IMG/VR virus record: IMGVR_UViG_3300035701_003705
Location: 1 to 21,340 of that record
Source: a virus
DNA length: 21,340 nucleotides
Reading direction: 5' to 3' (one strand)
How positions within the stretch are numbered: the stretch's first letter is position 1; the number at the start of each line of letters is the position of its first letter. The translations under genes were made by a program, and so were the position numbers. Positions 3,800 through 21,340 of the stretch are shown here, piece by piece. The notes under the pieces are model-generated. The model saw nothing but the letters and a program-made list of their open reading frames with translations. It was not told the origin of the DNA and did no database searches.

Positions 3800-4794
3800 G
3801 GCATAAACAAGACCGCACCATCGAGCGATTAGAAGTCGAGAGCCTCCGGGCCATCGACAAGCTCGTGATGCAGGGGTCTTTGGGCGTCAAGGCCATTTGG
3901 GACGAGGCCATCGATTCCATGCGGAACTCGGTGATCGAGGAATACCGCCGGGACTTTGGCCGGGACAAATGGAACCTGACGCTGGCCGCCAAGATGGGAA
4001 CCTTCAATCGGATCGACCGCCGGATCGCCGGGACGCTGTCGGCATTTCACTCAGCCTCGATCCTGATGGCCGCCATGGTTTTCAGGGACATTTATTTCCA
4101 AGGCGTATTGAGAAACGCTTGGATGATCGATCAGGTAACGCCGCCCTCCTACGACGTGAAGCTCCCGAAGTCGCCCATGTTCAAAGAGGCCGACCCTGTT
4201 TATCGGGGCCCGGAATCGGACACGGCGTGGAAGGTTCGCTGGTCGGCGTGGATGGACGCTTATCGGGCGTCACTCAATCAGAACCTTCGCCTCGGGGCCA
4301 TGAACGAATCCGAGATCAACGACGCCGCCGACGAGGTGGAAGCGACCCGGCCCGGGAGCCCGCAAGCCGATATGTGGAACGCCATCGAGAAGGTTTACAC
4401 GAATCAGGCGGACACCGTTTACTCGTCGGCACAGATCGACGTGTCGGAAGCGAATCCGCAATTAGAGATTGTGGAGATTTGGCAAACCCGTTATTATGAC
4501 CGTGTCTGCGACATCTGCGATGAGAACCGTGGGCTGACCCGGGACGAGGCCGACAGCGACATTCCGGCCCATCCCAACTGCGGATGCTTCTGGCGGCTCG
4601 TGCCGAAGTCGTGGCGGGCCCTGTTGATGTCGGGCGATCAGAACGACGTGGCGATAGCGAAGGCGATGGACGCCTCGGGCGAGGTTCCCAACGCCATGCT
4701 GATTTTTAACGACGACGGGAAGCTGGTGGGATCGACGATTGTCGAGTTTGATACGTGGGCCGAAAATAAGATGGCCCCAATTCAGTCAAGGTAA
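3796..4794 (+). CDS. MuF-like minor head protein
   Basis: Minor capsid protein of the Mu gpF/SPP1 gp7 type, which binds the portal and is often packaged inside the head. The diagnostic C-terminal motif is present: VCDICDENRG (from about residue 237), then DIPAHPNCGCFWRLVP (from about residue 255), so Cys, His and Cys sit in the spacing of the MuF domain, a probable metal site or structural clasp. The N-terminal 230 residues are mostly helical with no recognised toxin or enzyme domain. The start ATG overlaps the portal stop by four bases. At 332 residues it is a standard stand-alone MuF protein, without the C-terminal polymorphic toxin fusions found in some phages. Confidence 0.9.
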   Translation: MRHKQDRTIERLEVESLRAIDKLVMQGSLGVKAIWDEAIDSMRNSVIEEYRRDFGRDKWNLTLAAKMGTFNRIDRRIAGTLSAFHSASILMAAMVFRDIYFQGVLRNAWMIDQVTPPSYDVKLPKSPMFKEADPVYRGPESDTAWKVRWSAWMDAYRASLNQNLRLGAMNESEINDAADEVEATRPGSPQADMWNAIEKVYTNQADTVYSSAQIDVSEANPQLEIVEIWQTRYYDRVCDICDENRGLTRDEADSDIPAHPNCGCFWRLVPKSWRALLMSGDQNDVAIAKAMDASGEVPNAMLIFNDDGKLVGSTIVEFDTWAENKMAPIQSR

Positions 4795-5498: not shown

Positions 5499-6975
5499 AG
5501 CCGTCAAGACAATGTTCCGGGACAATAAAGAAAAAAACGTCGCCGGATATGATTCGCTCGTCGATAAACTGAAGGGCGACCCGGACGTGGACAATCCCTA
5601 CGCTCTGGCCCATTACATCAAGGGCGAGTCGAAAAAGAAAGGGGCCACGCAAGCCAACACGCTGAACACGCTCTCCCAGCTTTTGAAGAAGGGCACGAAG
5701 CTCCGCTGTTCGGAATCGGCCAAATTTGTCGAGAAGGTATCCGTATCCGAAGCCCCGGAGGGCCACGTGTTCAAGGTGGTCTTGATCACTGAGGGGCTGG
5801 GGAACCGCCGCAACATGAATTTCTACGGGCCGGAAGCCATCGTGTCCGCCCCCGGCATATTCGAGGGAAAGCCATGTTTCCTCGACCACCCCAGCGAATC
5901 CGAGGATCGGGATATACCGGAACGCCGGGTGCGTGACAAGTGTGGATATTTTAAGAACGTGAAGGTGGAATCCATGGACGGGGCCCAAGCGGTGACGGGC
6001 GAGCTTCATTTTGACCTGTCGGATTCCGGGAAGAACGGCTACCTGAAAGCCCTGACCGCCCTTCACTACAGAAACGAATTTCCAAACCTCGAATCGGAAT
6101 ATGTCGGCCTCTCCATCAACGCTGATGGAGAGTGGGAAGATCGCAAAGTCGAATGGCTGGGCGAAATTCTCGACGTTAATTATGTCACGCAATTCAAAGA
6201 CGCATTCTCGTGTGACATCGTGACAAGCCCGGCACGAGGTGGAAGATTCCTTGCCTTGGTGGAAAGTGCCGCTGGGGCAAAACCCGGAAAGGAGGGAAAT
6301 GCCATGAAAGGACTCAAGAAGAGTCTTGAAGCGGCACGAGCCGCCCTTGAGGAAGCCGTCAAAGAATCCGACGCCGCAAAAAAGGCGAGTAAAGTCGCCG
6401 AGGCCAAGAAGCTCTTTGATGCGTTTCTTAAAGAGGCGGAAACAGCCGCTATGCAAGACGAAGATGAATCCGAATCCGAAAAGAAAGAAGGGTGCGAAGA
6501 CGAGGGCGAAGCCAAAGTCGTGGCCAAAGCTTCCGAAAAAAAGGAAGACGAAGCCAAGAAAGAGGACGAGTCCGAATCCGAGGACGATTCTGAAAAGAAG
6601 GATAAGGAAGTTCCAGCAGTTAAAAAGGAAGAGACCGAAGCCGAAGACGACAAGGAATTGCCGAAAGGCGATAAGGTCGATGGCGAAGACGAGGATGAAG
6701 ACGAAACCGTCGAATCCAAACGTCTCGCTGTGACCGCCCTGTTGAAGGAAGCGAAGGTCGATCTTCCCGAAGAAAAGGTCGCCGAATTGGGCAAGCTCTC
6801 TTTGAAGGAAGCGAAAAAAGAAATCGCTTTCCTCAAGGGCTTGGTCGAAGCGACCGCAAAAAAAGTGATCAGCAAAATGTCGGTTCCATCCGCCCGGTTC
6901 GCCTCGATGAGTGAATCAGAACGGAAAGCCGTCGGGTCAGGCAACAACGACCTGTTCGCTGATTGTCTAAGGTAA
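5479..6975 (+). CDS. Prohead protease fused to capsid scaffold
   Basis: One 498-residue polypeptide combining the maturation protease and the scaffold. After an N-terminal extension of roughly 75 residues comes a protease domain with NRRNMNFYGPEAI (about 114-126), FEGKPCFLDHPSE (His near 137), YVGLSINADGEW (Ser near 212) and SCDIVTSPARGG (about 244-255). This is the Mu gpI-like/assemblin-like layout, with His and Ser as likely catalytic residues (inferred from family pattern). From about residue 276 the sequence becomes a long helix, then a highly charged Lys/Glu/Asp/Ser tract, then another helix, as expected for a disposable scaffold. GGAGGT at 5465-5470 lies eight bases before ATG 5479. A second strong start inside the gene (see 6304) would give free scaffold, the arrangement known from lambda C/Nu3. 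The decoration and capsid genes follow directly. Confidence 0.85.
   Translation: MTKLVIKAVKTMFRDNKEKNVAGYDSLVDKLKGDPDVDNPYALAHYIKGESKKKGATQANTLNTLSQLLKKGTKLRCSESAKFVEKVSVSEAPEGHVFKVVLITEGLGNRRNMNFYGPEAIVSAPGIFEGKPCFLDHPSESEDRDIPERRVRDKCGYFKNVKVESMDGAQAVTGELHFDLSDSGKNGYLKALTALHYRNEFPNLESEYVGLSINADGEWEDRKVEWLGEILDVNYVTQFKDAFSCDIVTSPARGGRFLALVESAAGAKPGKEGNAMKGLKKSLEAARAALEEAVKESDAAKKASKVAEAKKLFDAFLKEAETAAMQDEDESESEKKEGCEDEGEAKVVAKASEKKEDEAKKEDESESEDDSEKKDKEVPAVKKEETEAEDDKELPKGDKVDGEDEDEDETVESKRLAVTALLKEAKVDLPEEKVAELGKLSLKEAKKEIAFLKGLVEATAKKVISKMSVPSARFASMSESERKAVGSGNNDLFADCLR
6288..6295 (+). promoter_or_regulatory. Internal ribosome binding site for the nested scaffold
   Basis: AAAGGAGG is a near-perfect Shine-Dalgarno sequence located inside the protease-scaffold gene, eight bases before the in-frame ATG at 6304. 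It is as strong as the sites in front of the decoration and capsid genes. Its position, exactly at the boundary between the protease domain and the scaffold domain, is what makes it meaningful rather than a random purine run. Confidence 0.7.
6304..6975 (+). CDS. Nested in-frame scaffold protein
   Basis: Starting at the internal ATG 6304, the same frame as the protease gene gives a 223-residue protein beginning MKGLKKSLEAARAALEEAVK. It contains only the scaffold part: a helix rich in Ala, Glu and Lys, an acidic low-complexity tract with repeated ESES, EDD and KKE (about residues 52-140), and a C-terminal helical region ending in a Ser/Arg/Asn-rich tail that probably contacts capsid subunits. 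The scaffold should be made in large excess over the protease, and a private ribosome binding site provides this. Phage lambda solves the same problem with Nu3 nested in C. The start is inferred from the sequence; no expression data exist here. Confidence 0.65.
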   Translation: MKGLKKSLEAARAALEEAVKESDAAKKASKVAEAKKLFDAFLKEAETAAMQDEDESESEKKEGCEDEGEAKVVAKASEKKEDEAKKEDESESEDDSEKKDKEVPAVKKEETEAEDDKELPKGDKVDGEDEDEDETVESKRLAVTALLKEAKVDLPEEKVAELGKLSLKEAKKEIAFLKGLVEATAKKVISKMSVPSARFASMSESERKAVGSGNNDLFADCLR

Positions 6976-8769: not shown

Positions 8770-10134
8770 ATGAAAAAGCTTTTTCGATGGGCGATTGCCC
8801 TTTTAATCCCGTTCTGTGTTGCCGGGGGAATCTACGCCTCCCGAGTGGTTTATAACCAGCTTTTGGTCAGCGAAACCGCACTGGCCTATGACAACACATA
8901 CACGGTGGACTTGGGATCGAGCGTCCTGCCCAACAGCAACGTCGACACCATTTCCATGCAAGCGGCTTATTCAAGTGCCACAATTTCAACCGTCAGTTTG
9001 ACCGACGGCAAAGCTTCGACCGGGACGATCACCGTTGCCAACAACGCCCTCCTCTTGGGCGTGGCCGCATCGAACACCCTCACTGTATCATCCAACACTT
9101 TCCTGTCTGGAAAATCGGTTTACTTCGATCTGAACGGAACCCGATTTCTGAATGGCGACTTGTGGAACGTGGGAGCTTCTTCGGCGGCAACAGCCATCAG
9201 CATTAAAAATGCCATCAACACCTACGGCGGGACGAGTGCCCTGTTCTCCGCTTCGACTGCGACCGCAGACGGAGTGGTGACGATCACCTGTGTCGTTGTC
9301 GGTGCGGCAGGAAATAATTACACGCTGTCCTCAAGCACCGCCGCCGCCCTTGTTCGTGGTGCGGCGAAGTTCTCCGGCGGACGCAATCACCCTGTGCTGA
9401 TCGTGGCCGGGTATCCATTGACCGAGGGAACCGAATGGACTCACGGAGCGACAGCGGCCCTGACAGCCAAAAGCATCAGCGATGCCATTCAGGCCCATGC
9501 GACCCTTGGCGGTCTTATCGGATCGACTTGGACAGCGGCGGGCGTGGTCACGGCCACGTCAACCACCGTCGGTGCCGGGAAGAATTACTCGCTGTGGTCG
9601 TCGACGCTTACGTCCTTGACCACGTTCGCTCCGCAAATGAAAGGCGGGGTGGATTCGGCCATCGTGACGGCCAGCAGTAAGATCAGCTCGGTCAGTCATG
9701 GTTTGACCACGGGATTGCCCGTCCTCTACACCCTGTCTGCTGGGACATCGCCCGGGACTTTGGTCGCCAACACGACCTATTACGTCATTCGGGTAGACGC
9801 CAATAGCTTTAAGCTGGCATCAAGCCAAGCCCACGCTATCGCTGGCACAGCGGTCGCCATCGCCACACAAACGGCCCGTGGCGGCGGAATCTTCTCTCTG
9901 GCTCCCCTGCCCATTGCCGGGACGCCCAGCTTCAAATGGCAATCATCGAACGATGGCACAAACTGGTCTGACCTTGCCGTGTCGAGCGTAACAATGTCCT
10001 CTCTGGCCCCGGCCTCAACGCTGTGGGATTTCTCAGAGGTGACGATCAACTTCCGATACCTTCGCCTTAATGTCGTGGCCCCAACGGCTGGCGGCATCAA
10101 CCTCGTGGTGACTGGCGTGGGGAGATCAAACTAA
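8770..10134 (+). CDS. Repeat-rich phage surface protein with signal peptide or membrane anchor
   Basis: This 454-residue protein opens with MKKLFRWAIALLIPFCVAGG, a positive start and hydrophobic core as in a Sec signal or N-terminal anchor. There is no lipobox. GGGAGG about nine bases before ATG 8770 fixes the start, so the hydrophobic N-terminus is not an artefact. The rest is Ser/Thr/Ala-rich beta sequence. Two related units occur: about residues 110-190 (NGDLWNVG ... GVVTITCVVVGAAGNNYTLSSST) and about 215-280 (TEGTEWTHG ... GVVTATSTTVGAGKNYSLWSST). Then comes a unit with SSVSHGLTTGLPVLY and TYYVIRVDANSFKLA (about 302-355), a kind common in phage fibres and head-surface proteins, and a C-terminal beta domain ending FRYLRLNVVA. 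It may be a head fibre or an exported protein. Its place after the capsid gene argues for the virion, its N-terminus for export. Confidence 0.65.
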   Translation: MKKLFRWAIALLIPFCVAGGIYASRVVYNQLLVSETALAYDNTYTVDLGSSVLPNSNVDTISMQAAYSSATISTVSLTDGKASTGTITVANNALLLGVAASNTLTVSSNTFLSGKSVYFDLNGTRFLNGDLWNVGASSAATAISIKNAINTYGGTSALFSASTATADGVVTITCVVVGAAGNNYTLSSSTAAALVRGAAKFSGGRNHPVLIVAGYPLTEGTEWTHGATAALTAKSISDAIQAHATLGGLIGSTWTAAGVVTATSTTVGAGKNYSLWSSTLTSLTTFAPQMKGGVDSAIVTASSKISSVSHGLTTGLPVLYTLSAGTSPGTLVANTTYYVIRVDANSFKLASSQAHAIAGTAVAIATQTARGGGIFSLAPLPIAGTPSFKWQSSNDGTNWSDLAVSSVTMSSLAPASTLWDFSEVTINFRYLRLNVVAPTAGGINLVVTGVGRSN

Positions 10135-12332: not shown

Positions 12333-13301
12333 ATGCCATATGTTGGACAATTAATGGCGGCTGGGTTGGCGAAAGAAGGATCGCTTGGGGTGTTGCAGTC
12401 TCCACCGACAGAATTTTTGCCAATTTACCCGCCCGATTCTTTTATGCCCTCGATCACCCTTCTGGAATCGACGGCCATTCGTGCGTTACCGGATCGGATT
12501 TACAAGGCGATGCAGGGCCCCGGAGAAGTGAAGGGGATGAAAACGAAGTGGGAAGCGGAGCCGGAAAATATCGGCAACCTCCTCATGGCCTGTTTCGGAA
12601 CGGACACCAAGACCGGGGCTCTTGCCACTGGGTACACCCACAAGTTTACCCGGGCCGTCGTGGCCCAGCTCCCGACCTATTCGTGGTGGTTCGACAAGGG
12701 TGCGAAGAAATTGCAGTTCACCGGGTGTATGCTCAACAAGCTCGACATCACGGCCAAGACGAAGGAGTTTGTCACGGTCGAATCCGAGTGGGTGGGCTTA
12801 TTGTATGACGACACCGGAACCTCCCAAGTGCCTGTTTATTCTGCGGTCAACCCGTGGAAGTTCAACATGGCCGACGTGAAAATCGACGCCGGGTCGATCC
12901 TGAACTACGACAATGTGAAGGTCACCTTCGACAACTTCGTGAAGGCCGACCACGCCTTGTCCGGTTCGATTTACCCCGCTAAGATTTACAGCGAAGGGTT
13001 CGAGGTCACCGTGACGATGGACTTGTTCCTTGAGGACACCACGGAATATGCGAAGTTCCTCGCCGGAAGCTCCACGGCCATCCAACTGGTGCTGACGCAC
13101 AGCGACAACATCACAGGAGCCGACCCAGCCAATCCGTACAAACTGACAATCGACATTCCCGATGCGAAGTATTCCGTGGCCAGTTACCCGCTTCCGTCCG
13201 GGGTCATCAAAGTAAGCTTTACCGCCCGAGGGATTTACAATGTGGCATCGACTAAAACAGCGTCGGTGGAATTGATAAATTCCGTGTCGGCGGCGTACTA
13301 A
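12333..13301 (+). CDS. Major tail tube protein
   Basis: The 322-residue tube subunit, stacking in hexameric rings around the tape measure. AAGGAGG eight bases before ATG 12333 gives high expression. The protein has the two-part tube pattern: an N-terminal segment with KAMQGPGEVKGMKTKWEAEP, a beta sandwich with YTHKFTRA, LPTYSWWFDKG and FTGCMLNKLDITAKTKEFVT (about residues 105-150), then a second strand-rich half with VKVTFDNFVKADHALSG and FEVTVTMDLFLEDTTEY. The position, between the terminator-type gene and the tail assembly chaperone, is diagnostic. No sheath gene is present, which favours a non-contractile tail. Confidence 0.82.
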   Translation: MPYVGQLMAAGLAKEGSLGVLQSPPTEFLPIYPPDSFMPSITLLESTAIRALPDRIYKAMQGPGEVKGMKTKWEAEPENIGNLLMACFGTDTKTGALATGYTHKFTRAVVAQLPTYSWWFDKGAKKLQFTGCMLNKLDITAKTKEFVTVESEWVGLLYDDTGTSQVPVYSAVNPWKFNMADVKIDAGSILNYDNVKVTFDNFVKADHALSGSIYPAKIYSEGFEVTVTMDLFLEDTTEYAKFLAGSSTAIQLVLTHSDNITGADPANPYKLTIDIPDAKYSVASYPLPSGVIKVSFTARGIYNVASTKTASVELINSVSAAY

Positions 13302-13311
13302 GGAGAACACA

Positions 13312-13680
13312 ATGGAATTGCTGAAACTTGGAGAGAGACCAGCAGAGTTTAAGTGGAAAGACGTTACCTTCTTTTTTCGCACGAAGGTGACGGTGGGCGA
13401 CAAATACGAGATCGATACCGCCGGGACGCTGATCGCCGGGGACAAGGTTTCGTTCACGCCGTGGAATTTCTACCTGACCATCACACGGATATTCGTGACG
13501 GGCTGGGACGGAGTGACGGAGGACGGGAAGGCTGTGCCATATTCCCACGAGAATATGCTCACCCGGCTCCCGGCCCAAGATTCAGAGGACTTGATCATGA
13601 AACTGGGTGTCCACATCGCCCAAAACAACGGTCTGATATCCTCGGACAAAAAGGAAGAGGACGGCGTAAAAAACGTCTGA
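13312..13680 (+). CDS. Tail assembly chaperone, short form (gpG-like)
   Basis: The unshifted product is 122 residues and is the more abundant form expected. It begins MELLKLGERPAEFKWKDVTF and has a compact alpha/beta body including KVTVGDKYEIDTAGTLIAGD. Such proteins coat the tape measure before the tube polymerises. AAGGAGA six bases before ATG 13312 is strong. Location between tube and tape measure genes, plus the slippery site three bases before its stop codon, identifies it by the lambda G/GT model; there is little sequence conservation in this class, so context carries the call. Confidence 0.8.
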   Translation: MELLKLGERPAEFKWKDVTFFFRTKVTVGDKYEIDTAGTLIAGDKVSFTPWNFYLTITRIFVTGWDGVTEDGKAVPYSHENMLTRLPAQDSEDLIMKLGVHIAQNNGLISSDKKEEDGVKNV

Positions 13681-14006
13681 GGCGGTCGATCGAATGGCTG
13701 GAAACGGCTGGAAGTTTTAAGTGCGAACGGTTCGATTGCCCGCAGGTTAAAAAGAAGGATTGCCCCAAGTGCGGGATGCCGGAGGTAGGCCGGGACGTGG
13801 CCTTTTATTTGAACCTCTACCGCCAATGTTCCACGTGGAACATTCTGCCGGAAAGCGGCGGGCTCTTTGACCAGCGGTGGGAGATCATGGACATCTTGAA
13901 CATCATCGGGGCCGAGGTGGACAGGTGGAAGCAGAAGCGGATGGCTGACGAAAGGGCCGATGTCGAAAAGCAGACAATGTTAAGGGGAATGAATGGCGGA
14001 CGTTGA
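13312..14006 (+). CDS. Tail assembly chaperone, long form made by -1 frameshift (gpGT-like)
   Basis: Slippage by -1 at 13668-13674 joins the first 121 residues of the short form to a 110-residue extension read in the next frame up to the stop at 14004-14006, giving about 231 residues. The join reads GVKN then RLRRSIEWLETAG. The extension has no credible start of its own near its beginning. It carries a Cys cluster, KCERFDC ... DCPKC (C-x4-C and C-x2-C), suggesting a small metal-binding fold, and then a helical part LPESGGLFDQRWEIMDILNIIGAEVDRW that resembles T-domain sequences of other phages. It overlaps the tape measure start by 14 bases. A parS-like palindrome lies within the extension. 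Confidence 0.78.
13668..13674 (+). promoter_or_regulatory. Slippery heptamer for programmed -1 frameshifting
   Basis: A AAA AAC in the zero frame of the tail chaperone, directly before its last sense codon GTC and stop TGA. Both tRNAs can re-pair after slipping back by one base. A purine-rich AGGAAGAGG at 13652-13660, eight bases upstream, could act as a Shine-Dalgarno-like stimulator as in dnaX. A weaker candidate, C AAA AAG, lies at 13647-13653. I saw no strong downstream stem-loop. Confidence 0.75.
13825..13844. other. parS: parS-like centromere palindrome (candidate ParB binding site)
   Basis: A perfect 20-bp palindrome whose inner 16 bases are TGTTCCACGTGGAACA. The known bacterial parS sites have the CACGTG core flanked by GTTn/nAAC: the B. 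subtilis consensus is TGTTnCACGTGAAACA and Pseudomonas sites contain GTTCCACGTGGAAC. The match here is complete over the Pseudomonas-type core. The site is inside the coding sequence of the tail chaperone extension (residues Q-C-S-T-W-N-I). I found no other site like it in the window, and no ParA or ParB gene is in the window. What is seen is the palindrome; ParB binding is inference. Confidence 0.6.
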
Positions 14007-15711
14007 TGCAAATATAAACATCTCGGCGGTCGGGGCTGACGAAGCCTCGGCGGCCCTTGGTAAAGTATCTGAAGGCTTTCAGGGCATTTCAGACGAACAC
14101 GCCAAGCTGGCCGGGAAGTTCGGCGAGAGATTCCAACACGTCGGGCTTCAGCTCTTTGTGGGCGAGGCCCTCAAGGCGTCCGGGGTCGGGATGGAAACCC
14201 GGGGCGTTCTCAATATCCTTAACCTCGCCATCAACTCGTTCGGGTTGGCTATGGGTGCGGCGGTTCCCTACATCATCGGGGCGGGGGCGGCCCTTGCCGT
14301 TTTATATGGGCTGTACCAGAAGATGGCCGACGCCACCAAAAAGCGGAAGGACGAGCTGGCCGCCCTGCTTACCGCCCAAGAGAAAGAAATCCAATCGCTG
14401 AACACCGGGATCGCCACGCTCGAAAGCTACAACAAGACGCTCGGCTACCTGCCGGAGACAACCAGAAAACTCCTCGAAGCCAAAAAAGAACTGCGTGACT
14501 TTGAGGCCAAAGAAGAAATCTCTAACCTCGAAAAACAGGTCGTTGCCATCAAGAAGCTGATGGCCGAGGAGGAGAACCGCAACACCCAGTTAAAGAATCT
14601 TGCGGCCACGCAGAATACGGTAACCGCCGGGAGCTTGGTCGGGGCCGCCGCCACCCAAGGATTGATCGGGATCGCCGGGCAAGCCAGCCTTAAATACTCA
14701 GACTGGAATAAACAGATTTTAGAGAACAACAAAGCCTTCCTTGAGAACAAGGTTCAGCTTGCCGAGGCGACGGATCGCCTCCGGGAATTGAAGGGCGGGG
14801 TGACGGAAACCTACGACGCCCTTGCTAAGAAGGCCAAGGAAGCCCAAGAGGCGGCGGAGAAAGCCTCCCGGGAACAGATATCCGCCATCGAGAGGATTGG
14901 CAAGGCGGAGGAGGTTCTCAGGGACAAAGAGGCCGGGTATCTGGTCGATGCCGCCCAGCAGAACGCCAATTCGATGGCCGAGAAGAACCGGGCCACGGAG
15001 CTGTGGTATCAGAAGGAACAGCAAAAACTTCAGGCGTGGTACGACATGCAGGTCACGTTCATCGCCAACCACATCAAGGACGTGACGCTGGCGAACGAAA
15101 AGAAAATGGAGCTTGAGGCCCTGTACGGGAAGGCTCTGGACGCTCTTGAGAAGGATCGTTATGCCAAGACCCTGACCGCCGAAAAGAAAATGTGGAACGA
15201 CGTGAAGGATGCGGCGGCCTCCGCTATCGACGCCACGGCAAAGAAGGTGGGTGACTCCTTCGCTAAAATGCTCGTCGAGGGAAAGAGTTTCACCGACAGC
15301 CTTGAGCATATGTGGCGGGACATGGCCGAAATGTTTATTTCCGAAATCGCCCGGATGATGATTAAATATCTGGCGTTCATGGCCCTGACCGGAGGGAACA
15401 CGGCTTCTCCGATGGCCAAGATGTTTGGATTTGCGGAAGGCGGATCGATGCTGGTCACCAAGCCGACGCTGATGTTGGCGGGCGAAGGCGGCCAGCCCGA
15501 GGTGGCGACGTTCACGCCCCTGTCCAAGATGCAATCGGCGGGCGGCGGGATATCGCAGGGGCCTTCGGGCGGAAGCCAGATTTCTATTGGGGCAATCGAA
15601 ACGCACGTTTATGGCGTGACCGACCCGGCCCGGATCGCAGATGAGGTGGGACGGCAGATCGTCCAGCGAATCCGTGGGATGGGCGAGATTGATTTTGTGA
15701 GGGCAATCTAA
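13993..15711 (+). CDS. Tape measure protein
   Basis: Sets tail length and is ejected ahead of the DNA. The 572-residue protein starts inside the chaperone extension (AAGGGG just before ATG 13993). It has a hydrophobic segment at about residues 72-108 (NILNLAINSFGLAMGAAVPY and onward through an Ala/Gly-rich stretch), a possible membrane-inserting region. Long charged coiled coils follow at about 110-420, and the C-terminus is of the lambda gpH type: FAEGGSMLVTKPTLMLAGEG then GQPEVATFTPLSK (about 475-515), ending in a strand and helix near DPARIADEVGRQIVQRIRG. By the usual 0.15 nm per residue, a tail of roughly 85 nm would result. No peptidase or transglycosylase domain is visible. Confidence 0.9.
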   Translation: MADVDANINISAVGADEASAALGKVSEGFQGISDEHAKLAGKFGERFQHVGLQLFVGEALKASGVGMETRGVLNILNLAINSFGLAMGAAVPYIIGAGAALAVLYGLYQKMADATKKRKDELAALLTAQEKEIQSLNTGIATLESYNKTLGYLPETTRKLLEAKKELRDFEAKEEISNLEKQVVAIKKLMAEEENRNTQLKNLAATQNTVTAGSLVGAAATQGLIGIAGQASLKYSDWNKQILENNKAFLENKVQLAEATDRLRELKGGVTETYDALAKKAKEAQEAAEKASREQISAIERIGKAEEVLRDKEAGYLVDAAQQNANSMAEKNRATELWYQKEQQKLQAWYDMQVTFIANHIKDVTLANEKKMELEALYGKALDALEKDRYAKTLTAEKKMWNDVKDAAASAIDATAKKVGDSFAKMLVEGKSFTDSLEHMWRDMAEMFISEIARMMIKYLAFMALTGGNTASPMAKMFGFAEGGSMLVTKPTLMLAGEGGQPEVATFTPLSKMQSAGGGISQGPSGGSQISIGAIETHVYGVTDPARIADEVGRQIVQRIRGMGEIDFVRAI

Positions 15712-16441: not shown

Positions 16442-17410
16442 ATGAAGAAACTACTGACACTGGCCATCGTCGCCAGCCTCGTTGCCTTTGGAACGGGGCC
16501 ACGCTGGGCGTTTGCCGATTCGACCACAACCCGGTTCGGGATTACCAAGCCGGACGTGGGTTCCACGAACTGGGGCCCGAAGATCAACTCGAACTACGAC
16601 ATCATCGACAATGCGGCGGGGCTGGCCATTTCCAATACCTTCACCAACACAAACTATTTCACGGGCGTGGTGGTGGTGGGCGGGACGACCTTTTCCGGGA
16701 CGGGACAGTTTGAGGTTCGCAAGGATCAGGCCGCCGACACGATCCTGCGGATCACCAACGGCACGAACGGGGCCGGGGCCCAAGCCCGGGAACTGATCAC
16801 CACGGGCGGAGCATCCGCTGGGGATGCGTACTGGACGGCGGATGTCGGGGCAGTACAATATTCGTTCGGGATAGACAACTCGGATTCGGACAAATTCAAA
16901 ATTTCGCTTGGGACGGTTCTTGGAACAACGGATCGGATTGTAATTGATCCGTCCGGGGCGATCACATACCCTGTACAGCCATCTTTTCTTGCGGTCAATG
17001 CAACCCAACAAACCAATGCCACTGGCGATGGAACCTCATATAAAATTCCGTGGGCCACTGAGATTTTCGATAAGGGTGGGAATTTCGCATTGGTAAATTC
17101 GACTTATTGCTTCACCGCCCCTGTCACCGGAAAATATCATTTCGATGTTATGGTCTATTTTGAATCGGCAACCACATCCCATGTTTCGAGAGCTATAAAA
17201 TTAAACACTACAGCCAGAAATTATCAGGCTTATTTGGGAGCATCGGACACCACCAACGAATGGCGTTTGTCCGTCTTGGCCGACATGACCGCTGGGGATA
17301 TTGCGTGGGTGCAGGTTTCAATGGCCGGAAGCACAAAAACAGTTTCCATCGGATCGGGGGCGGTTTCTTCACAGCCGGGCGATTGGTTCTCTGGCTACTT
17401 GGCAAATTGA
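16442..17410 (+). CDS. Fibre-like protein with cleavable Sec signal peptide and C1q-like head
   Basis: A 322-residue protein with three parts. Residues 1-25 (MKKLLTLAIVASLVAFGTGP ... WAFA) form a textbook Sec signal peptide with an AxA cleavage site before Asp26. Residues 26-60 (TTTRFGITKPDVGSTNWGPK, then INSNYDIIDNAAG) match the N-terminal motif seen in many phage tail fibres and tail-tip proteins. Residues about 185-322 look like a C1q/TNF-type jelly roll (CFTAPVTGKYHFDVMVYFES ... WRLSVLADMTAGDIAWVQVS ... DWFSGYLAN), a trimeric binding head. AGGAGG seven bases before ATG 16442 fixes the start. The gene sits between two tail genes, so a virion role is expected, yet the signal peptide predicts export. 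The C1q part is visibly richer in A+T than its surroundings, suggesting separate acquisition. Confidence 0.75.
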   Translation: MKKLLTLAIVASLVAFGTGPRWAFADSTTTRFGITKPDVGSTNWGPKINSNYDIIDNAAGLAISNTFTNTNYFTGVVVVGGTTFSGTGQFEVRKDQAADTILRITNGTNGAGAQARELITTGGASAGDAYWTADVGAVQYSFGIDNSDSDKFKISLGTVLGTTDRIVIDPSGAITYPVQPSFLAVNATQQTNATGDGTSYKIPWATEIFDKGGNFALVNSTYCFTAPVTGKYHFDVMVYFESATTSHVSRAIKLNTTARNYQAYLGASDTTNEWRLSVLADMTAGDIAWVQVSMAGSTKTVSIGSGAVSSQPGDWFSGYLAN

Positions 17411-17421
17411 GGTGGTGACTG

Positions 17422-20400
17422 ATGCTCGCAGTATCCCCCGCATTTAAGGCCGCAGAACAGGCCGATGTCAATCAGGTCGCCGCACAGCTATTTCTCGTCC
17501 TCGGGAATTATGCGAGTGCGTCGGCCTATGGGGCGACTGCGGCGGCGTCATCTTCTGACGGAAGCGGAAACTACCCGGCGACAGGGGCGATAGACGGAGA
17601 TCGGACGGAGCTGAACATCGGGGCCGCCACGGCGGCGGACAACGACGTGGGCCTGTCCTCTTGGCGATCCAGCGTGGCCCCGGACACCACCCCGCAAACT
17701 CTGACCATCGACTTCGGCGTGTTGCGTAAAATCACACGGCTCAAGCTCTACCATCTGACCAGCCACGCCCTTAAATCGTTCAAGTTTTCATGGTCGACGG
17801 ACAACATTTCTTACACGGACTTCGCCGCCACTACCGACGTGGGCGGGGCCCCGACATTGTTCACGACCACCAAGCAACTTGACACGATTGATTTCACTCT
17901 GATAACGGCTCGCTACATCAAGCTCACGATCTCTGCCACGGACGTGGCCCTCGACAAAGCCAACGTCGTGGAGCTGGAAGCCTATCGGGTGATTGAAATT
18001 TCGGATCGGGTGGTCTCCGCCCAAATGGATCGGGCGAGGGATTATAAGCTGGTGAATCCCCTCGCCTCCACCTTGAAGCTGACCTGCGACAATTCGGATC
18101 GGTTCTTTTCGTTTGATCACGTGGCGACAGCGGCGGAGGCCGCCCTTGGGTTCATCAACTCGGAGCTGAAGCCCAACATCGGGGTGATCGCCAAGTACGG
18201 CTATGCCTTCGGCGGCGGGGCCCCGGAGCTGGCCACGGTGTTCGTGGGATTCTTGGATCGGCTCGTCATCAGCCCACGGGATCGCCGGGCCACGCTTGAG
18301 TTCCGGGACTCGATGAAGATGCTCCTCAATCAGACGGTGTCCTCGAAACTAAAGACCACCTACGACATCTCCTCGGCCATTTCCTACGCCCTGAATCTGG
18401 CCAATGTTTCCAAATGGGAAACGTCCATCGACACGACCGGGCTTTCCCTTGACTACTTCTTTCTCTCCGGCCAGACGGTAGCCTCCGCCATTCGTGACTT
18501 GACCCAAGGGGCCGGGGACGCCATATTCTATTTCGACGAGAATGGAATCGCCACGTTCAAAACGTATCTCGGCTCCACCCCGCAACAGCAAACCATCACG
18601 TCGCAAGCGGAATGGGAGGCGGGGTCGGTGTTCACGAACATCGACACCAAGAGCATCCCGGGCCAGATCAATCGGAAGTGGTATCTGGTGGACGACTTCG
18701 CAGACAATAATTTTAACATCAACCCGGCGTGGACAAACCGCATCCCCGTCCAGTTTCACATCGACAACACCAAGGTTCAATTCGATGCGGGCATCCTGTC
18801 GAACATAGACTCGGTGAGCATCCCCGATTCCATTCGACGAAGATGGTTTTTAATCGACAACTTCTCCGACGGGAATTACACGACAAACCCGGTGTGGAGC
18901 GTCTATAACGGCATTTATGATCTGCCGCCGTATATGCCAATCCAGTGGCTTGTGACGGGCGGTGTTCTCCGTTATCCGATGACCGTTTCAAAGGCATCGG
19001 GGATCGCATGGACACCGTTTGCTCAAGCGTATGGAACGTGGGAAGCGGACGTCAAGGTGACGACCGACGAAGCGTTTGGGAATTTCTTTTTTATTGCGAA
19101 TCAGGCTGGAAGTTATCAGTTTAACCATGGTTATTTTGTCGAGGTTTATCCTCACACCCTCGGGGGAATCCACCACTGCACAAGGTTTCGATTGATGAAA
19201 AACGGATACGGCGGAGCGATATATGAGCTTGGCGTCAGCGATTTCAACACTGCGAATTATCTCGGAAATCACAAAATTCGGATAACCAGAGCCGCTAATG
19301 GAAAAATGACGGTTTATGCTGACGGCGTTCAAGTAATACAGAAAACGGACACCGACTTCACCACATCCGCTTACGTCGGGTTCAGATGCACGTCGACGAG
19401 TTCCGCCACTGTTTTTGATTTCGATAATCTTTATTACTCGTATGATGTCGACGCCGTCTCCGTGGCCAGCAGTGTTCAGGCTTCAATCGAGTCGGCCCCC
19501 TACGATCAATCGGCCCAGCTCTTGGCGGAAGGATTATTTCAGGCGACGTTCAATGCCCCGGCGGGGTCGTCCGTGTCGTTTTTCACGGCGACATCGTCCG
19601 ACAATATAACGTGGGATGGGTGGGTTCCGGCGACCAACGGATATCTGATCTCCTCGGCCACGAAGCGGTACATCAAGTGGCGGGCCCTGCTCATTTGTCC
19701 AATAGATTCCGGGCTTAATAATGCCAACGTGACCACCCCGACCATTTCGTCGGTGACCATAAATTACACCGTCCGTGGATGGCAGGCCGCCTCTCAATCG
19801 CTCAAATATCTCCCGGCGACATCGGGCGTGATGGCTGGAATCGATCTCCCCTTCAACCAACCCACGGGAACGTGGCGGAGCGTGTTCACCTGCACCCCGG
19901 GGGCCGGAGGTGGATCGCTCGTGCGAATGTACGTCGTGACCACAGGGTATGGTGTCCCGGTCGGGACGTACACCGACGGATATTACGTCCAGCTTGACCA
20001 AAAAAATTCCAAGGTTGGCATCTATAAAATCAGCTCCGGCGGGGCCCGGACACTTCTGGCGGAGGTCGCCCAAGCCATCAATGGGGCCGCCCATTCGGTT
20101 CGCATGACGAGAGAAACGTCGGGCCAGCTCACCGTCTATTTTGACGAGGTTCAGATCGTTCAGGTGACGGACAGCACCTACACGCAGGTCGCCATATTCT
20201 CGCTTGAGGTCGATCCGACGGGCGACAACAACTCAGTCACCACGATTGATGACATTTATTTTTCACGCCAGATTGATGGGACGGGGGCCGTGACGAACGT
20301 GCAAGCGATTTATGAATCCGGTGTTATTGATCTGACCGCCGCTGTGGCTCTCCTCGGTCTATTGGCGTCCAGTTTCGTGACCCCAACGGGAACGAGTCTA

Positions 20401-21340
20401 TTGTTCTACACCGCCACATCTGCGGACGGAATAACCTTCGATCCCTATGTCGGTGTCGTCCCGGAGAACAACATCAACTCTACCGTCAAACGGTATTTGA
20501 AATTCAAGATCGCGATGACCACTTTACAGGACGGCGGAACTAAAGCGGATTTTACCACCCCGATTGTGAACGACGTGACCATTCACTGGAATACAACGGG
20601 CGGCTCTCAAAAATATCCGCAGTCTGTTTCCTTCACGTTCCGTTATGACGACGTTCTTTTGAATGTCGACCAACAGATCACGGATAACCTCGGCGGGGAT
20701 TCTTCCATTGCCAATGACGTGACCGTCCAAGCCAAGCCGCTTTTGCTGTCGGGAACAAGTGCCGACACGAAATGGCAGGGGTACGTCGGGACGCCCCCGG
20801 TCGCCATTGCCGTGGCCACGCCGCTGAACGTAACCATCGGTCAAGTGTTGACCTACGACGTGGTGGTTTCGGGCGGGATGGATATCTCCTTCATGACCGG
20901 GGCCAGCCCGGCGGGGGCCGTGGTGACGTTCGCTGGCGGGGCGGCGGGCAATTGGTCGTTTACCCGGATCAGCCCAACCCGGCCACGCCTCGTCATAAAT
21001 ATCACCGCCTCCGGGCAGATCACCGACCTTCGTGTTGTCGGAAAGACTTTCTCCAATTCGAGTTATGTCCAATCGCAGAACGCCAACAACCCGCAATCGA
21101 TCCGGCTCTATGGCGATCGCCCGCTTAACATTTCCAACCAGTACATTGTCAATTCCGGCGTGGCCTCGATCATTGCCACGAGGATGCTGGCCAATTACAA
21201 AGACCCCACCTCTTTCGTTTCGACGTGCGAAATCCGCCCGGCGTTTTCCATGGGGCTGGGAGATCGCATCAAAATTATCGACGACAATACGGACATGAAC
21301 GCCGACTTTATCGCCGTCGGAATCCGCCAAACGATCTCGG
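17422..21340 (+). CDS. Giant tail hub/tip protein with discoidin and concanavalin-like modules, 3'-truncated by the window
   Basis: An open frame of at least 1306 codons runs off the window end. GAGGTG stands seven bases before ATG 17422. Residues about 25-192 form an F5/8 type C (discoidin) domain: NYPATGAIDGDRTELN, SSWRSSVAPD, LTIDFGVLRKITRLKLYH, FKFSWSTDNISYTDF, ARYIKLTISATD. Residues about 194-395 resemble a tail hub domain (VFVGFLDRLVISPRDRRATL, LSGQTVASAIRDLTQGAGDA, FYFDENGIATFK). Then come a 55-residue tandem repeat (about 406-515) and two copies of a roughly 275-residue module (about 538-790 and 816-1063), each a concanavalin/LamG-like sandwich plus a beta domain. The final part ends with MGLGDRIKIIDDN and FIAVGIRQTIS, a typical hub C-terminal region, so the modules appear inserted within a hub framework. 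Role: tail tip structure and carbohydrate binding during adsorption. Confidence 0.85.
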   Translation, partial: MLAVSPAFKAAEQADVNQVAAQLFLVLGNYASASAYGATAAASSSDGSGNYPATGAIDGDRTELNIGAATAADNDVGLSSWRSSVAPDTTPQTLTIDFGVLRKITRLKLYHLTSHALKSFKFSWSTDNISYTDFAATTDVGGAPTLFTTTKQLDTIDFTLITARYIKLTISATDVALDKANVVELEAYRVIEISDRVVSAQMDRARDYKLVNPLASTLKLTCDNSDRFFSFDHVATAAEAALGFINSELKPNIGVIAKYGYAFGGGAPELATVFVGFLDRLVISPRDRRATLEFRDSMKMLLNQTVSSKLKTTYDISSAISYALNLANVSKWETSIDTTGLSLDYFFLSGQTVASAIRDLTQGAGDAIFYFDENGIATFKTYLGSTPQQQTITSQAEWEAGSVFTNIDTKSIPGQINRKWYLVDDFADNNFNINPAWTNRIPVQFHIDNTKVQFDAGILSNIDSVSIPDSIRRRWFLIDNFSDGNYTTNPVWSVYNGIYDLPPYMPIQWLVTGGVLRYPMTVSKASGIAWTPFAQAYGTWEADVKVTTDEAFGNFFFIANQAGSYQFNHGYFVEVYPHTLGGIHHCTRFRLMKNGYGGAIYELGVSDFNTANYLGNHKIRITRAANGKMTVYADGVQVIQKTDTDFTTSAYVGFRCTSTSSATVFDFDNLYYSYDVDAVSVASSVQASIESAPYDQSAQLLAEGLFQATFNAPAGSSVSFFTATSSDNITWDGWVPATNGYLISSATKRYIKWRALLICPIDSGLNNANVTTPTISSVTINYTVRGWQAASQSLKYLPATSGVMAGIDLPFNQPTGTWRSVFTCTPGAGGGSLVRMYVVTTGYGVPVGTYTDGYYVQLDQKNSKVGIYKISSGGARTLLAEVAQAINGAAHSVRMTRETSGQLTVYFDEVQIVQVTDSTYTQVAIFSLEVDPTGDNNSVTTIDDIYFSRQIDGTGAVTNVQAIYESGVIDLTAAVALLGLLASSFVTPTGTSLLFYTATSADGITFDPYVGVVPENNINSTVKRYLKFKIAMTTLQDGGTKADFTTPIVNDVTIHWNTTGGSQKYPQSVSFTFRYDDVLLNVDQQITDNLGGDSSIANDVTVQAKPLLLSGTSADTKWQGYVGTPPVAIAVATPLNVTIGQVLTYDVVVSGGMDISFMTGASPAGAVVTFAGGAAGNWSFTRISPTRPRLVINITASGQITDLRVVGKTFSNSSYVQSQNANNPQSIRLYGDRPLNISNQYIVNSGVASIIATRMLANYKDPTSFVSTCEIRPAFSMGLGDRIKIIDDNTDMNADFIAVGIRQTIS
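18637..18966 (+). repeat. 55-residue tandem repeat in the hub protein
   Basis: Two adjacent units spaced by exactly 165 bases (from 18637 and 18802). Unit 1 has NIDTKSIPGQINRKWYLVDD then FADNNFNINPAWT; unit 2 has NIDSVSIPDSIRRRWFLIDN then FSDGNYTTNPVWS. The D-D/N-F-x-D-x-N-x-x-x-N-P-x-W motif is the usual beginning of a concanavalin-like domain, so unit 1 may be a stub left by unequal duplication in front of the full domain that follows unit 2. Confidence 0.75.
19033..20610 (+). repeat. Tandem duplication of a concanavalin-like plus beta-sandwich module
   Basis: Two diverged copies, offset by about 825 bases. Matching landmarks: GTWEADVKV (19033) with GTWRSVFTC (19867); HKIRITRAANGKMTVYADG (19270) with HSVRMTRETSGQLTVYFDE (20092); VQASIESAPYD (19474) with VQAIYESGVID (20299); FFTATSSDNITWD (19579) with FYTATSADGITFD (20404); KRYIKWR with KRYLKFK. 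Each copy is thus a LamG-like domain of about 140 residues followed by a smaller beta domain. The DNA of the two copies is well diverged and copy 1 is richer in A+T, so the duplication is old or the copies were acquired separately. Confidence 0.8.

Follow-up and report, generated by a model that had tools for sequence, protein, structure and literature searches.

The slippery heptamer of phage lambda is G GGA AAG. In this phage, a short tail assembly chaperone (G) and its -1 frameshift extension (GT) are encoded upstream of the tape measure gene, with a ratio of 30:1 given for the two products (PMC5009743). A second heptamer, A AAA AAC, has been published before in the tail chaperone role. It is listed as the tail chaperone slip site of the haloarchaeal virus HCTV-2 (PMC5009743), it is given as AAAAAAC for the phiCbK group of Caulobacter phages, alongside GGGAAAC for phage Colossus (PMC3556154), and the same string is assigned to two Acinetobacter phages, Loki and IME_AB3 (PMC5313236). 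A_AAA_AAC also stands among the consensus heptamers of a report in which two HK97-type chaperone genes were measured to shift at 6-7% (PMC3711429). In IS1 and IS3 family elements, A_AA.A_AA.C is among the next most frequent heptamers after the pair A_AA.A_AA.G and A_AA.A_AA.A, has one proven IS cluster and is of low efficiency in E. coli (PMC4066793). A low heptamer efficiency would suit a long form that is needed in small amounts.

We analysed the complete virus record IMGVR_UViG_3300035701_003705 (21,340 bases; hereafter the window), in which head and tail genes are present. The features of the locus are as follows.

12333-13301, plus strand: tail tube gene, the upstream neighbour (Pfam PF18906 Phage_tube_2, E 9.5e-21)
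13312-13680, plus strand: 0-frame gene of 122 aa, probable short tail assembly chaperone (gpG-like), from the ORF, predicted fold and gene context
13652-13660, plus strand: AGGAAGAGG, a candidate Shine-Dalgarno (SD)-like stimulator, spaced 7 nt from the start of the heptamer
13668-13674, plus strand: slippery heptamer A AAA AAC, in X_XXY_YYZ phase
13674-14006, plus strand: -1-frame extension of 110 aa plus stop, probable gpT-like domain, from homology and -1-frame third-position substitution bias
13678-13680, plus strand: 0-frame stop TGA, the ORF end
13682-13743, plus strand: candidate downstream stem structure, its first pair 8 nt past the heptamer
13722-13772, plus strand: C-x4-C-x7-C-x2-C insert, zinc-ribbon-like, extension residues 17-33
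13993-15711, plus strand: tape measure gene, ATG at 13993 (phrog_24 tail length tape measure protein, E 6.7e-07)

The 0-frame ORF ends in GTA AAA AAC GTC TGA. The original prediction had placed a correctly phased A AAA AAC one sense codon ahead of the stop and had the -1 frame open for 110 further codons into the tape measure gene. The ORF coordinates bear out both claims, as the extension's stop ends at 14006 and the tape measure gene overlaps the extension by its last 14 nt; the junction peptide GVKNRLRR is likewise correctly derived. The pair lies between the tail tube and tape measure genes, which is the G/GT-type gene order. This gene order, the conservation of the heptamer, selection on the -1 frame, the predicted fold and the homology of the extension agree, and we are highly confident that the locus encodes the two tail assembly chaperones of a long-tailed phage, produced through a programmed -1 frameshift as in lambda G/GT.

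In this mechanism, the short chaperone would come from the majority of ribosomes, which translate 13312-13680 and stop at the TGA. The remaining few, holding tRNAs on AAA and AAC, would slip one base back onto AAA AAA and continue in the -1 frame to 14006. The long product would be a 231-residue fusion, made of 121 residues through the AAC asparagine and 110 residues of the extension. By analogy with lambda, the short form would coat the tape measure protein, while the extension would recruit the tail tube protein. That slippage occurs at this site, and at what rate, is something we infer from the features of the locus and its relatives. The likeness to lambda is one of arrangement rather than of directly compared sequence, and the window differs in its heptamer and in the four-cysteine insert of its extension. 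The phiCbK group, Loki, IME_AB3 and HCTV-2 share the slip site with the window at the level of the published motif.

Frame usage and start codons

Between the window and its closest relative (L001), the differences 5′ of the heptamer fall 18, 8 and 50 times on 0-frame positions 1, 2 and 3 (third position, 50 of 76), and those 3′ of it fall 18, 15 and 46 times on -1-frame positions 1, 2 and 3 (46 of 79). The corresponding counts for L007 against L008 are 19, 7 and 47 in the 0 frame (47 of 73) and 7, 4 and 29 in the -1 frame (29 of 40), and the heptamer itself carries zero differences in either comparison. The third-position bias swaps frame at the heptamer, so each frame appears to code for protein, with the heptamer as the point of change. 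The join can be placed most tightly in L008, where the heptamer (4665-4671) precedes a 0-frame stop at 4675-4677 and the overlap holds four in-phase positions, one of them taken by the heptamer. The frame join must be at the heptamer in this locus, because the -1 frame opens only 6 nt upstream, at 4659.

The same region bears on whether the extension could be an independent gene, initiated by itself or through termination-reinitiation near the TGA, such that the fusion is not made. The window leaves some room for this, since its -1 frame opens at 13353, with GTG codons there and at 13461; a TTG also stands in frame at extension codon 9 in L007 and L008. In L001, L006, L007 and L008, however, the -1 frame opens 6-66 nt 5′ of the heptamer and has no listed ATG, GTG or TTG ahead of the extension. 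Within the extension, the first such codon in the other three of the five closest loci is an ATG, at codon 35 in the window and L001 and codon 33 in L006. Starting there would lose the cysteine motif, and L007 and L008 lack this ATG. The five closest loci have no extension start codon in common, and in the alignment the conserved residues begin directly after the heptamer. The original prediction had named relatives whose extension has its own start codon and ribosome binding site as evidence that would speak against frameshifting, and none was seen among these five loci. We consider a separate gene very improbable here.

The heptamer across related loci

A comparison of the heptamer across related phages had been proposed with the original prediction, and it favours frameshifting: an in-phase X XXY YYZ heptamer is kept in 31 of 33 distinct chaperone loci (window counted), with A AAA AAC in 7 of the 33. 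These loci comprise 25 with a related extension (the window and 24 others), six found via the short form and two from Rhodococcus phages. Other cuts of the window or of counted contigs (L003, L004, L005, L014-L016, L022-L024 and L045-L047) were dropped, and three tail-tube relatives are uncounted. One of the three, L013, has an in-phase A AAA AAG one codon ahead of the stop and an extension of 82 codons; L010 and L011 showed no such in-phase site in the single ORF tested in each. Two pattern scans of genome contigs returned 39 and 43 pattern matches, from which no relative was confirmed. Elsewhere in the record, the window capsid protein is without a match among named phages, and the terminase matches are all below 60% identity.

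In the 25 loci with a related extension, an in-phase XXXYYYZ lies in every case (25/25) in the stretch that starts where the -1 frame opens and ends with the 0-frame stop. Five have AAAAAAC, 15 have CCCTTTA, two have GGGAAAC, two have GGGAAAA, and L026 has both CCCCCCA and AAATTTC; many of the CCCTTTA loci are near-identical, and by eye the set amounts to about eight lineages. The overlap is just 16-85 nt in 23 of the 24 relatives, with one in-phase heptamer each, and 382 nt with two heptamers in L026. The in-phase A AAA AAC is found in the window, L001, L006, L007 and L008, and also in the more distant chaperone relatives L002 and L021. In the five closest loci, its first A comes from the codons GTA, ATA, GCA, CTA and CTA. 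By window usage, to which these figures are confined, all four codons are rare (GTA 6.5%, ATA 9.2%, GCA 8.0% and CTA 1.8% of their own amino acid). The closely similar viral contigs L027-L032 and L034-L041 carry C CCT TTA 18 codons from the stop, farther than in the window clade.

All six loci from the short-form search have an in-phase heptamer, which is AAAAAAC in L002 and L021. By eye, the extensions of the six are unlike that of the window, and the L002 extension reaches its contig end. The A-rich heptamer is retained in phase in L021 (3153-3159) and L017 (3246-3252), chaperone-domain relatives with unlike extensions, as if extension domains had been swapped behind a retained slip site. 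The two misses in the count are the Rhodococcus phages Perlina (L009) and ReqiDocB7 (L012), which lie outside the 25-locus set. They share a related extension core and are annotated as joined coding sequences, and they differ from the window in having neither an XXXYYYZ heptamer, which counts against the frameshift reading, nor a cysteine insert. Their 0 frame ends CTG GAA AAA TAA (Perlina 2424-2438, ReqiDocB7 3918-3932), in an overlap without XXXYYYZ.

A runs can cause transcriptional slippage, and the long form might be made through RNA polymerase slippage on the A run rather than through ribosomal slippage. The near-identical loci L017-L020 have AAAAAAA within a run of nine A, 13 codons ahead of the stop, which makes transcriptional slippage a fair alternative in those loci. 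The window run, by contrast, is only six A, and CCCTTTA, GGGAAAC or AAATTTC, none of which offers a long run, is the stop-proximal heptamer in 18 of the 25 loci. For the window, polymerase slippage is given very little weight. Even less weight falls on gene decay, or on a miscalled or misassembled A6 run. Homopolymers are prone to sequencing error and the record is an IMG/VR contig, but the same frame change recurs in contigs with other sample numbers, many of them at the non-homopolymer CCCTTTA or GGGAAAC, and coding selection is seen in both frames.

The programmed frameshift can also be set against chance. The bare string AAAAAAC is not enriched, with 4 copies in the window on both strands against 5.1 expected, and the copy at 5532 is also in phase within its gene, but there the -1 frame closes after 4 codons. 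Among the 25 loci with a related extension, the long overlap of the window is the one place with off-phase heptamers (2). A Fisher combination over seven lineage representatives, in which L001 stands in for the window's lineage and the window and L026 are excluded, gives p about 2e-5, a rough value given that the own-locus rates come from 1-10 heptamers each and keep the site itself in the rate. Judged from these sequence counts, the part that exceeds chance is the conservation of the heptamer and not the bare string. A functionless coincidence is extremely improbable on this combined p and on the 31 of 33 loci with a heptamer, even though the window's overlap of 325 nt would by itself have an approximately 37% chance of holding at least one in-phase XXXYYYZ.

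Candidate stimulators

At dnaX-type sites, an SD-like sequence upstream and a stem downstream raise slippage, and the window has candidates for both, each uneven across relatives. The original prediction pointed to an SD-like stretch eight bases upstream of the heptamer. The stretch, AGGAAGAGG, is indeed present; its spacing is 7 nt, and it is unevenly conserved. Its duplex energy with an anti-SD string is -8.1 kcal/mol, which places it among the lowest 6% when set against 3000 random window positions. For the closest relatives the corresponding values are 2% (L001), 5% (L007), 9% (L008) and an ordinary 27% (L006). Elsewhere, against the window background, L033 lies in the lowest 0.5% and L043 and L044 at 3%, and the energy is ordinary in L002 (14%), in L025 (25%) and in the C CCT TTA loci tested (L027, L034 and L042 at 54%).

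Downstream, the 64-nt segment starting 6 nt 3′ of the heptamer folds at -23.1 kcal/mol (z -2.15, rank 6 of 69 local segments). Segments at the same position rank by z 1 (z -6.98) in L001, 6 in L006, 2 in L007 and 5 in L008, each of 69, and 4 of 44 in L002. Over 80 nt, z is -1.1 in the window and -6.4 in L001; no clear downstream stem was found in seven loci with other heptamers (80-nt z -1.6 to +1.2). When the L001 fold is imposed on the window, 20 of 25 pairs are kept, at -14.3 kcal/mol versus -24.3 kcal/mol for the window's own fold. Third-position change, as a measure of stem constraint, was not significantly reduced between the window and L001 (8 of the first 20 extension codons vs 38 of the remaining 90) or between L007 and L008 (3/20 vs 26/91, P 0.13). 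The local ranks hint at a downstream stem among the loci with A AAA AAC, and the SD-like stretch and the stem are likely candidate helpers in the window clade.

A further candidate, C AAA AAG at 13647-13653, had been put forward as an additional slip site and was rejected. It lacks the XXXYYYZ pattern of a standard tandem-slip heptamer, since re-pairing in the P site on CAA would mismatch at the first base, and the site is lost in the closest relative, L001, which reads AAG CAG there.

The two predicted products and the cysteine insert

The short form has a predicted mixed alpha/beta fold (mean pLDDT 76.5 over 5 sequences) that resembles a tail chaperone, though by weak scores. Five of its first 10 matches in BFVD are named tail assembly chaperone, the best of these at E 3.8e-3 with probability 1.00. 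None of its fold matches reached E 0.001, and in a Foldseek search of the PDB neither the short form nor the extension had a match at E<=0.001. The sole chain with Z>=2 among 101 PDB chains in a second look was Bacillus subtilis YqbN (PDB 3klu), which we take to have a chaperone role. The predicted fold aligns with it over 89 residues at a middling Z of 6.2, with an rmsd of 4.9 and an identity of only 17%. Neither half of the window's gene pair has a PHROGs match at E<=0.001 or a Pfam match at E<=0.1. The tail assembly chaperone family phrog_9001 was matched by 2 of the 7 members of set A2 (best E 1.5e-05), the window not among them, and by 1 of the 14 members of set A5 (E 0.037).

For the extension, the window has a weak direct match to Perlina (E 2e-4), and the L007 extension matches the ReqiDocB7 'truncated pre-TMP frameshift protein' at E 2e-8. 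L, P, GG and DQ positions are common to 7/7 aligned extensions, namely the five closest loci and the two Rhodococcus phages. At the level of sequence, the extension family appears homologous to annotated frameshift products and related to a known T domain.

The least familiar part of the locus is the four-cysteine insert of the extension, with cysteines at residues 17, 22, 30 and 33 in the window. The pattern C-x4-C-x(5-7)-C-x2-C is present in 5/5 of the closest loci (window, L001, L006, L007 and L008), where the block is predicted at pLDDT 61-77. Both Rhodococcus extensions are without the insert, and among nine other extensions compared only L026 has several cysteines nearby, arranged otherwise. 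The insert has no Pfam match at E<=1 and reads as a putative zinc ribbon. It is conceivable, at slightly less than an even chance, that the frameshift-only part of the chaperone gained a metal-binding zinc ribbon immediately behind the slip site in this lineage, and that only the rare long form is metal-bound.

Other proteins of the record showed features of their own. The long gene at 17422-21339, which runs off the contig, has an N-terminal F5/8 type C (discoidin) domain (E 5.7e-13), and in the structural module the products of 8770-10134 and 16442-17410 have N termini that look signal-peptide-like by eye (MKKLFRWAIALLIPF... and MKKLLTLAIVASLVAF...).

With the programmed frameshift as the reading of this locus, annotation can cover both chaperone products in phages whose version of this gene Pfam and PHROGs miss, and well-supported A AAA AAC sites are added to those in print. 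The relatives have at least five heptamer types in one phase, which suggests a constant slip position at which the letters of the heptamer, and perhaps the extension domains behind it, turn over. If the long form does carry a zinc ribbon, the putative ribbon could modulate how it contacts the tail tube protein or the tape measure protein.
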